In this document: positions 12,346-56,878 of the stretch, piece after piece | Layout of the letters: each line of letters opens with the position of its first letter | Position numbering within the stretch: the stretch's first letter is position 1 | Source of the DNA: Rudaeicoccus suwonensis | GTDB taxonomy: Bacteria > Actinomycetota > Actinomycetes > Actinomycetales > Dermatophilaceae | Direction of reading: 5' to 3' | Length of the DNA: 64,000 nucleotides | Assembly: GCF_007829035.1 (NCBI RefSeq) | Contig: NZ_VIVQ01000002.1 | Span: 310,001 to 374,000, forward strand | Notes under the pieces: model-generated | What the model saw: the letters and a program-made list of their open reading frames with translations, nothing else | Database searches by the model: none | What the model was told of the DNA's origin: nothing | Made by a program: the position numbers and the translations under genes

Positions 12346-12351
12346 TAGCCT
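12346..12351 (+). promoter_or_regulatory. -10 element (TAGCCT) for a leaderless thrS leader transcript
   Basis: TAGCCT fits the actinobacterial TAnnnT -10 hexamer. The leader-peptide ATG begins 7 bases after it, which is the spacing expected when transcription starts on the A of the start codon. No Shine-Dalgarno sequence precedes that ATG, which agrees with a leaderless leader peptide. The -35 region is weak. Confidence 0.45.
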
Positions 12352-12358
12352 GCTACCC

Positions 12359-12418
12359 ATGCAGCGCGCGCAACACACGACGACGCCGGATCTCTCCGGC
12401 GCTGCCAGGCTGCACTGA
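12359..12418 (+). CDS. Leader peptide with three Thr codons upstream of thrS
   Basis: ATG to TGA encodes the 19-residue peptide MQRAQHTTTPDLSGAARLH. Codons 7-9 are ACG ACG ACG, three consecutive threonine codons, in front of a threonyl-tRNA synthetase gene; this is the classic arrangement of ribosome-mediated attenuation. The gene is too short for ordinary gene calling. A -10 hexamer 7 bases before the ATG suggests leaderless translation. The first RNA hairpin overlaps codons 9-14, immediately behind the Thr codons, so a ribosome waiting for charged tRNA-Thr would cover its left arm. Seen directly: the frame and codons. Inferred: regulation. Confidence 0.68.
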   Translation: MQRAQHTTTPDLSGAARLH

Positions 12419-12463
12419 ACCAACCCGCACCCTCGCCCCGGAGCCACGACCCGGGGGCGATTT
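12384..12463 (+). promoter_or_regulatory. Transcription attenuator: pause hairpin, antiterminator and terminator
   Basis: Hairpin 1:2 is CGCCGGA-TCTC-TCCGGCG (12384-12401), perfect over 7 bp. The terminator 3:4 pairs TCGCCCC (12433-12439) with GGGGCGA (12454-12460, after one extra G) and is followed by TTT. The alternative 2:3 pairing joins CTCCGG (12394-12399) with CCGGAG (12438-12443) and would break both. When charged tRNA-Thr is plentiful the ribosome passes the Thr codons and the terminator forms. When it is scarce, stalling frees segment 2 to form the antiterminator. No T-box motif is present. The folding is deduced by eye. Confidence 0.62.
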
Positions 12464-12512
12464 CGCGTTCCAGGACCGCCGGCTCCGGCAAACCCGACCT
12501 GGAGTCCAGCCC

Positions 12513-13805
12513 ATGAACGATCAATCAGCACAACCACATTCGCAGGATTACCGCGAGATCAACCAGTCCATGCAGGTGTTCGCCGGAGATCCGCTTGCCG
12601 GCGCCGGCCTGCCGCTGTGGCTACCGGCGGGCTCGGTGATCCGCAACGAACTGGAGCGACTGGCCTGCGACATCGCCCGCGCCGACGGCTGCATCTCGGT
12701 CCATTCCCCGGTGCTCGGCAAGCGCGCGCTGTTCGAAAAGTCCGGCCATTGGGCGAAGTTCGCCGACGACATGTTCCCCGCGATGCGGCTCGGCGGGAGC
12801 GACGACGACCCGGACGAACTCGTGTTGCGCCCGGCGAACTGTCCGCATCACGCGCTGACCTATCGCGCCAGCAGGCACTCGTACCGCGAATTGCCCATCC
12901 GGCTCAACGAACTCGCTCCGATGTTTCGTGCGGAGCGTTCCGGCGTGGTGTCCGGCCTCACCCGTGTGCGGCAGATCAACCTCGACGACACCCATGTGTT
13001 CTGCCGGCCCGATCAGGTGGCCGGCGAGGCGGCGCGGGCACTGCGCTCCGCGCTCAAAGCGCAGCAGATCCTGGGACTGCCAGTCGATTACGTGCGACTG
13101 AGCAAGCGCGATGACAGCGCGGCATACCTGGGCGATGCGCAGATGTGGCGAGACGCGCAGGCCGCACTGCGACGCGCGGCACAGGAGGCCGGGCTCGACG
13201 ACATCGCCATACCTCTCGTGGAGGCTGAGGGGGAAGCGGCGTTCTACGGGCCCAAACTCGATCTACAGGTGCGCGACGAGCGCGGTCACGAGGAGACCAT
13301 CGCAACAGTTCAACTCGACTTCAATCAGCCGGAGCGCTTCGACCTCACCTACGACGCGGCGGACGGCTCGCGCGAGCGTGTTGTGATGATCCACCGCGGG
13401 ACCGTCGGGGCGATGGAACGTGTCACCGCGGCATTGCTGCAACACCATCAGGGTCGAATGCCGTTGTGGTTGGCGCCGATTCAGGTGTGCGTGTTGCCTG
13501 TCAGGCCGGAACAGGACCGCGATGCACGCGAGATCGTCGACGCCCTGGTGGCCGTCGGCATACGTGCGCGGATGGATCCGCAGGGCTCGCTCGGTGGGCG
13601 TATCCGAGCCAGCCGGGCACGACGGGACGCGGTGATCGCCGTCATCGGTGAGGCCGAGGTCGCGGCGCGTGCGCTTCAGGTGACCGACGTGCGGTCAGGA
13701 TTCCGTGGGACCGTGCCGCTGCGGCGCTTCGTCGATCTCGTGTCCGAGGCGTATGACGAACGCCGCAGCGAACTGCGATGGAATGCGCCGGTCAGGCCCA
13801 GCTGA
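12513..13805 (+). CDS. thrS: Threonyl-tRNA synthetase, short form without TGS and editing domains
   Basis: A 430-residue class II synthetase that charges tRNA-Thr; ordinary ThrRS is about 640-690 residues. The catalytic core begins at once, with no N-terminal TGS or editing domain. The three zinc ligands known in E. coli ThrRS are all present: Cys110 (RPANCPHH), His161 (NLDDTHVFC) and His294 (VMIHRGTVG). Motif 2 is ELAPMFRAERSG and motif 3 GTVGAMERVTAALL; the anticodon-binding domain (LAPIQVCVLPVRPEQDRDAR) closes the protein. ATG 12513 follows GGAG. A Thr-rich leader and attenuator precede it. It is probably a second, editing-free ThrRS, perhaps conferring drug tolerance or serving in starvation. 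Its 3' end overlaps the convergent gene by 14 bp. Confidence 0.85.
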   Translation: MNDQSAQPHSQDYREINQSMQVFAGDPLAGAGLPLWLPAGSVIRNELERLACDIARADGCISVHSPVLGKRALFEKSGHWAKFADDMFPAMRLGGSDDDPDELVLRPANCPHHALTYRASRHSYRELPIRLNELAPMFRAERSGVVSGLTRVRQINLDDTHVFCRPDQVAGEAARALRSALKAQQILGLPVDYVRLSKRDDSAAYLGDAQMWRDAQAALRRAAQEAGLDDIAIPLVEAEGEAAFYGPKLDLQVRDERGHEETIATVQLDFNQPERFDLTYDAADGSRERVVMIHRGTVGAMERVTAALLQHHQGRMPLWLAPIQVCVLPVRPEQDRDAREIVDALVAVGIRARMDPQGSLGGRIRASRARRDAVIAVIGEAEVAARALQVTDVRSGFRGTVPLRRFVDLVSEAYDERRSELRWNAPVRPS

Positions 13806-55744: not shown

Positions 55745-56878
55745 ATGACCGACGCACACATCGGAGTCATCGGCACCGGCAGCATCGGCAGCATGGCGAT
55801 GTGGCAGGCGACCCGACATGAGACCTCGGTCATCGGTTTCGAGGCCAAGACTCCCGCGCACCCGCGCACCGCCGTTGGCGGCGACTCGCGTCTGTTCCGT
55901 ATGACGTACCGCGGCACCGATCCTTACTTCCCCATCCTGAAGCGCTCCCGCGAGCTGTGGCTGGAACTGGAAAAAGATTCAGGCTCATCGGTTTTCGGAC
56001 AGTGCGGAGGGCTGTCCATCGGCCACCGCGACGGCTCGTACATCCCGGCGCTGCTGGAGTCGATCGACGCATGCGGTGCGGAGCATCGGATCCTTGACCA
56101 TGCGGAAATGAAGGAGCGCTACCCCCAACACGACCTGGATTCCGACGAAGTCGGGGTCTGGGACGCGCAGGCGGGGTACCTGCGAACGGACGCTGCGGTG
56201 CTGGCCGCACTGACCTGCGCGCGGGAGCGCGGCGCGACGGTCCTGACGGACACCAACATCACCTCGGTGACCGAGCACAACGACTACGTCGAAGTCAGCG
56301 ATGGCGACCAGTCGTGGACGGTCGACCGCCTCATCGTCACAGGTGGGGCCTGGGCCGGCGGGATCCTTCCGGACGCACTTCAACGCCGGGTGTATCCGGC
56401 GCGAATCTTGTTGACCTGGTTCGGAACTCAGCGCCCGGACCTGTTCACCCCGGAGGTCTTCCCGATCTTCATCCGGATTGCCCGAGGCACGTCGATGTAT
56501 GGCGCGCCGTGTCTGGACGGCGCATCGGTCAAGGCCAGTCTCGACGGGCGTGCCGAACGTGCCGATGATCCGTCCGACCTTCTGCGCGAACCAACTCTCG
56601 GTGAGATGACTGAAGTGCGAGGCACCGCTGCGAGCTACTTCCCCGATCTGGTTCCGTACGTCGTACGTGCCGACACCTATCCCGACCTCTACACCGACGA
56701 CGGGGCGCCGTTGCTCGGTTTCGCGCCCGGATCACGGCGAGTGGTCCTCGCGACAGGCTTCTGTGGAGCCGGGTTCAAAATGGCGACCGGTTACGGGCAG
56801 ATCGCTGCCGATCTTGCGCTGGACCCAAACTCGGCGAGGACCCCGAAATTCACTGATCCTGCTCGGTTCATGGTGTGA
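55745..56878 (+). CDS. Monomeric sarcosine oxidase-like FAD enzyme
   Basis: A 377-residue flavin oxidase of the MSOX/N-methyltryptophan oxidase group. The FAD motif is IGVIGTGSIGSMAMWQATRH (Gly10-x-Gly12), then HPRTAVGGDSRLFRMTYRGT and the C-terminal VLATGFCGAGFKMATGYGQI. The usual Cys-x-Tyr-Thr-x-Thr-Pro-Asp stretch that covalently binds FAD reads PDLYTDDGAPLLG here, so FAD is probably not covalently bound. It would N-demethylate or deaminate a secondary amine brought in by the transporter. ATG 55745 is preferred (GTG 55739 overlaps the previous stop). It is the last gene of the plus-strand operon. Confidence 0.82.
   Translation: MTDAHIGVIGTGSIGSMAMWQATRHETSVIGFEAKTPAHPRTAVGGDSRLFRMTYRGTDPYFPILKRSRELWLELEKDSGSSVFGQCGGLSIGHRDGSYIPALLESIDACGAEHRILDHAEMKERYPQHDLDSDEVGVWDAQAGYLRTDAAVLAALTCARERGATVLTDTNITSVTEHNDYVEVSDGDQSWTVDRLIVTGGAWAGGILPDALQRRVYPARILLTWFGTQRPDLFTPEVFPIFIRIARGTSMYGAPCLDGASVKASLDGRAERADDPSDLLREPTLGEMTEVRGTAASYFPDLVPYVVRADTYPDLYTDDGAPLLGFAPGSRRVVLATGFCGAGFKMATGYGQIAADLALDPNSARTPKFTDPARFMV

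Follow-up and report, generated by a model that had tools for sequence, protein, structure and literature searches.

A conserved threonine-codon leader with the layout of a ribosome-mediated attenuator precedes a second, editing-less threonyl-tRNA synthetase gene in actinobacteria

The locus analysed here raises the question of how, and in response to what, an actinobacterium might control a second threonyl-tRNA synthetase (ThrRS). The gene lies at 12513-13805 on the forward strand of the window, the whole stretch of 64,000 nucleotides of Rudaeicoccus suwonensis DNA that was analysed, and encodes a 430-residue protein whose fold is in no doubt: a class II ThrRS catalytic core is joined to an anticodon-binding domain, and the TGS and editing domains are both absent. 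Because the same genome also carries a full-length thrS on another contig, the window gene specifies a second enzyme, and we refer to it as thrS2. As an extra copy it is divergent, its product sharing 34.7% identity with the full-length ThrRS of the same genome, and within the host's family it occurs patchily. Genes for tRNA-Thr with the anticodons GGT, CGT and TGT were present among the 30 best of 46 tRNA matches in this genome. A first-pass annotation of the window had proposed ribosome-mediated attenuation ahead of a thrS gene; that the gene encodes a second enzyme without an editing domain goes beyond that proposal.

When the sequence was re-read, the promoter, leader frame, Thr triplet, stems and thrS were all located where the first-pass annotation had placed them. 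The −10 element of the leaderless promoter, TAGCCT (12346-12351; this and all features below are on the forward strand), stands 7 nt ahead of the ATG at 12359, a spacing typical of leaderless transcription, and has TANNNT counterparts in the orthologues. The leader frame comprises 19 codons, encoding MQRAQHTTTPDLSGAARLH before its stop codon (12359-12418), with the three putative regulatory Thr codons, ACG ACG ACG, at 12377-12385; its end is separated from the thrS2 start by a gap of 94 nt. Strand 1 (CGCCGGA, 12384-12390) pairs with TCCGGCG (12395-12401) in the 1:2 hairpin, and strand 2 (CTCCGGCG, 12394-12401) can take either strand 1 or strand 3 as its partner. Strand 3 (TCGCCCCGGAG, 12433-12443) is in turn both the 5' arm of the predicted terminator and the antiterminator partner, with CTCCGG (12394-12399) pairing with CCGGAG (12438-12443). 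The terminator stem pairs 12433-12441 with 12451-12460; strand 4 (CCGGGGGCGA), the 3' arm, together with the T-run TTT (12461-12463) occupies 12451-12463. With one bulged G and a T-run of TTT only, the terminator of the window is weaker than most (about −15 kcal/mol versus a median of −23 in relatives), and the isolated window RNA folds modestly better than its shuffles (z −1.5).

Orthologues of 43-72% identity were gathered from the host's family and from public genomes, with Nocardioides, Saccharopolyspora, Rhodococcus, Micromonospora, Kribbella, Actinomyces, Microbacterium, Geodermatophilus and Promicromonospora among the sources. A Thr-Thr-Thr leader was found at 72 loci, 66 of them non-redundant, a count inflated by the relatedness of the lineages and not one of independent events. 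Five further loci are without a Thr3 frame. Three of them carry a Thr-Thr variant whose promoter is spaced in the same way (L054, MRSPQFTTPPEPSGARVA; L056, MVSQHVTTPGPPATRC; L067, MASPQHVTTPESSGARLLP), L022 has no leader of any kind, and L102 is a full-length thrS; the roughly 70 non-redundant orthologues thus divide into 66 with the Thr3 leader, three with a Thr-Thr variant and one with none. None of the full-length thrS genes of the sampled relatives has such a leader. In every one of the 66 non-redundant Thr3 leaders a TANNNT hexamer lies 6-8 nt ahead of the chosen start codon, and shuffling the upstream regions never produced the combination of promoter and Thr3 frame (rate 0.0). This conservation suggests that the leader is translated. 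Behind the Thr run the peptide falls mainly into two classes, TTTPDPLRR followed by a stop codon and TTTPDxSGA with a further tail. One RNA hairpin underlies both, read in a different frame in each, so that the constraint is on the RNA and not on the peptide. The CTGCTGCA-type motif at 12409-12414 is likewise kept in the orthologues regardless of the leader reading frame.

The pairings themselves were assessed in an alignment of 45 non-redundant sequences (A1). For helices 1:2 and 3:4, 96.3% of the cells are paired, compared with 38-55% for slid partners, and two-sided changes occur in five pairs and 18 cells, a level reached in 0 of 500 shuffles. Helix 2:3 is paired in 97.4% of cells (23-69% when slid) and has two-sided changes in two pairs and five cells. 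Invariant pairs number 4 of 7, 3 of 9 and 2 of 6, so that the covariation comes from a minority of positions and the stems are kept largely by identity. Strands 2 and 3 can each pair with either neighbour, which on sequence grounds is the classic attenuator layout, and a GC-rich hairpin followed by a T-run, as expected of an intrinsic terminator, lies between leader and gene in nearly all orthologues. The conserved Thr codon runs, the compensatory changes in the stems and the three mutually exclusive pairings (each present in 96-97% of alignment cells) thus bear out what the first-pass annotation had proposed.

The window RNA fold first suggested a fourth pairing that the first-pass annotation did not include, an outer helix between strand 0 (TGCAGC, 12360-12365) and a segment 3' of strand 2 (GCTGCA, 12409-12414). 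Real partners score 17.2 versus 14.6 ± 0.33 when partners are swapped between species, and none of 20,000 permutations scored as high. When the set was cut to 16, 98 of 20,000 did, and among 28 Streptomyces-type sequences 126 of 20,000. With this moderate support we regard the outer helix as probable but not certain; it would enclose the leader start in a hairpin and strengthen 1:2. A GGCTCC-like motif also recurs in the window (12483-12512) and in orthologues; it lies past the terminator, ahead of the Shine-Dalgarno site, and could pair with GGAG at that site or with strand 3.

Taken together, a short frame with a run of cognate codons, the alternative pairings and the terminator-like hairpin argue that thrS2 is controlled by a transcription attenuator of the trp/his/thr type that senses uncharged tRNA-Thr, a reading to which we assign a probability of about 0.9. 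Sequence conservation backs the leader and its distance from the promoter, as well as the pairings and the codon bias, and from these we infer the steps of termination, stalling and induction. Transcription would begin on the leader ATG or beside it, and the leaderless transcript would be translated immediately. When tRNA-Thr is charged, the ribosome would pass the ACG triplet and run to the stop codon, making strand 2 unavailable to strand 3; the 3:4 terminator would then form and thrS2 would be off. Should the ACG-reading tRNA-Thr be uncharged, because Thr is scarce or the housekeeping ThrRS has been lost or inhibited, the ribosome would stall on the ACG codons and cover strand 1 (and strand 0), leaving 2:3 to pair and transcription to proceed into thrS2. 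If the leader were not translated at all, the outer helix and 1:2 would occupy strand 2 and the terminator would again form.

Stems of this kind are common in any single GC-rich sequence, as the z-score of −1.5 illustrates, and the arrangement might in principle be accidental, a small reading frame and chance stems in GC-rich intergenic DNA. The comparative data already refute that reading: the leader criterion has a rate of 0.0 in shuffles and is conserved across many families, which leaves chance a vanishingly small share. Stalling might instead reshape the Shine-Dalgarno region of thrS2, making the control translational and termination minor. The GGCTCC-like motif can indeed pair with GGAGCC/GGAGTC at the Shine-Dalgarno site, with eight contiguous pairs in the window; across 55 orthologues, however, complementarity to this region averages 5.8 nt versus 5.0 nt in shuffles, and nearly all orthologues have the GC-rich hairpin with T behind it. 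We consider translational control very improbable as the main mechanism. Conserved Shine-Dalgarno sequestration as a second layer was also rejected, the complementarity being barely above that of shuffles.

The leader and the gene that follows it differ sharply in their Thr codons, a segregation that the first-pass annotation had not described. In the 66 non-redundant leaders, 181 of 198 Thr codons (91%) are ACG, and the first two Thr positions, which lie outside the 1:2 stem, have ACG in 115 of 132 cases. The thrS2 genes have ACG in only 21 of 623 Thr codons (3%) versus 1251 of 3465 (36%) in flanking genes, the latter taken from mechanically chosen ORFs; 43 of 55 thrS2 genes contain no ACG at all, among them that of the window, with ten Thr codons. 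Threonine itself is scarce, making up 2.3% of ThrRS2 residues versus 6.7% in flanking genes, about a third. The pattern is repeated in 26 Streptomyces-type thrS2 genes (ACG 1.1%, Thr 2.5%). Fisher P-values calculated for the codon contrast overstate the evidence, the lineages being related. Under selective-charging theory, for which PMC1183508 cites Elf et al. 2003, the codon expected in a leader is the one read by the isoacceptor that is first to lose its charge; under cognate-bias theory, an amino acid is expected to be scarce in the enzymes that supply it (PMC4209129). Both patterns appear at the thrS2 locus. With few Thr codons and almost no ACG, thrS2 should still be translatable while ACG codons are starved. 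We think it fairly likely that the two parts of the locus are split by codon across much of the actinobacteria, the leader reading the ACG-decoding tRNA-Thr isoacceptors and thrS2 being purged of ACG, and largely of Thr, so that a back-up ThrRS can be made during ACG starvation.

Ordinary codon bias, set by expression level or local composition and unrelated to the leader, might also account for the low ACG content. ACC is the commonest Thr codon in the genomes compared, full-length thrS cores have ACG at 18.8%, somewhat under average (5 of 14 Thr codons in the core of the host's own gene), and L022, the sole short orthologue without a leader, has one ACG among 19 Thr codons, a total roughly double the usual. 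On the other hand, the usage of C- and G-ending codons for Ala, Pro, Val and Ser in thrS2 equals that of flanking genes (codon choice for Leu and Arg is also nearly the same), and the fusA and tuf genes of the host have ACG in about one third of their Thr codons, so that high expression does not explain the scarcity; the rplB frame was possibly overextended and was not relied on in this comparison. Of the host's own hom-thrC-thrB genes (L190), hom is ACG-poor (2 of 21 Thr codons) but thrC (8 of 21) and thrB (8 of 18) are not. Bias due to expression level was rejected on the strength of fusA, tuf and the unchanged codon usage for other amino acids, and codon bias in its broader form seems to us unlikely.

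A further question is what the switch responds to. The same attenuator could serve mainly to report that the housekeeping ThrRS is blocked, for instance by ThrRS-directed natural products, or has failed, with thrS2 as a resistance paralogue. Its divergence from the full-length enzyme and its patchy occurrence in the family would suit such a role, uncharged tRNA-Thr would report inhibition equally well, and inducible duplicate ThrRSs are known, as with Anabaena T2 (PMC4787780). The Thr-poor coding sequence, however, fits amino acid shortage too, and we rate inhibition as the main signal a real possibility that falls a little short of even odds. In either case the attenuator would sense uncharged tRNA-Thr, and the locus suggests a regulated ThrRS without editing as a possible back-up in starvation or against inhibitors; both the back-up role and the benefit of an enzyme without editing are what we infer from the gene and its leader.

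The kind of element is not new, and here the first-pass annotation, which knew of no described actinobacterial thrS example, has to be corrected. In Streptomyces lividans TK24 the leader thrL, MKRVRPFLETTPGFVPAR (SLIV_19412/19410), was found by RNA-seq to be leaderless and to lie ahead of thrS (PMC8079986). As here, a leaderless Thr leader directly precedes an actinobacterial threonyl-tRNA ligase gene, and SLIV_19410 is, judging by its leader, probably the short paralogue. The S. lividans peptide has two Thr codons, unlike the three of the window, and its tail, TTPxxVPAR before the stop, is the form of our Streptomyces-type members, such as L126 (MKRAQPFLTTTPDSVPAR). Its authors described one hairpin and no clear U-rich stretch, and gave no comparative or structural analysis (PMC8079986). 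An earlier survey of actinobacterial attenuators, from 2005, described classical attenuators ahead of trpS and leuS in Streptomyces, likewise aminoacyl-tRNA synthetase genes but serving amino acids other than Thr, and reported no threonine attenuator and no conserved RNA element for threonine operons (PMC1262725).

Further afield, the leader of the E. coli thr operon (Rfam Thr_leader) likewise combines Thr codons with a terminator and an antiterminator to sense charged tRNA-Thr; it controls biosynthetic genes, whereas the leader here precedes a synthetase gene, and it senses Ile too. Its major regulatory codon is ACC, of which it has eight (PMC1183508), so that the choice of ACG is a difference. 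The Rfam Thr_leader covariance model had no match in the window, nor did the T-box family, and no Rfam family reached its gathering score there. Duplicate, stress-controlled thrS genes in Anabaena and Bacillus are induced by failure of the main enzyme or by uncharged tRNA-Thr. In B. subtilis the duplicate, thrZ, is under a T-box, which binds tRNA directly and without a leader peptide. The Anabaena thrS2 also encodes a second ThrRS with impaired editing and is controlled by stress, unlike here through the zinc repressor Zur (PMC4787780).

A covariance model built from the element (R1) was run on the host's own genome and on 395 genomes of its class. In the own genome it found one strong site, the window leader (E 4e-14); the remaining matches are all weak, and the next, at E 0.004, was judged to be chance. 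One of them, L118, lies inside a long coding frame, another, L120, overlaps a tRNA match, and no thrS stands beside any of the weak matches fetched. Strong matches occur in about 50 of the 395 genomes. Of 29 newly fetched, 26 lie ahead of a short thrS and two ahead of a full-length thrS; the remaining one, L148, was not counted, its short locus containing no ThrRS and its site extraction being unclean. The two full-length genes, L128 in genome G520 and L145 in genome G387, encode the TGS and editing domains and are the only ThrRS of their genomes, so that the switch is attached there to the sole synthetase, an arrangement not foreseen in the first-pass annotation. What is new beyond S. lividans is this placement, the breadth of conservation, the resolved structure and the codon segregation. 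An element represented by one RNA-seq annotation becomes a conserved and structurally resolved one whose covariance model can annotate others. Selective tRNA charging and cognate-amino-acid bias can also be tested cleanly on this natural locus, since it pairs a leader of one Thr codon with a gene nearly free of that codon, and the split by codon, if true, would be a natural, large-sample case of selective-charging theory.

Two smaller observations concern similar sequences. At 56374-56462 the window contains a weak covariance-model match (E 0.03), a Thr-Ser-Thr-Pro frame with a CCGG hairpin, which we judged to be chance. The metL, metNIQ leader of S. lividans, MSTTSDRTPATEATTTPGARCMCRRMCAF, has TTTPGAR within it and resembles the Thr leaders (PMC8079986, Table 4).
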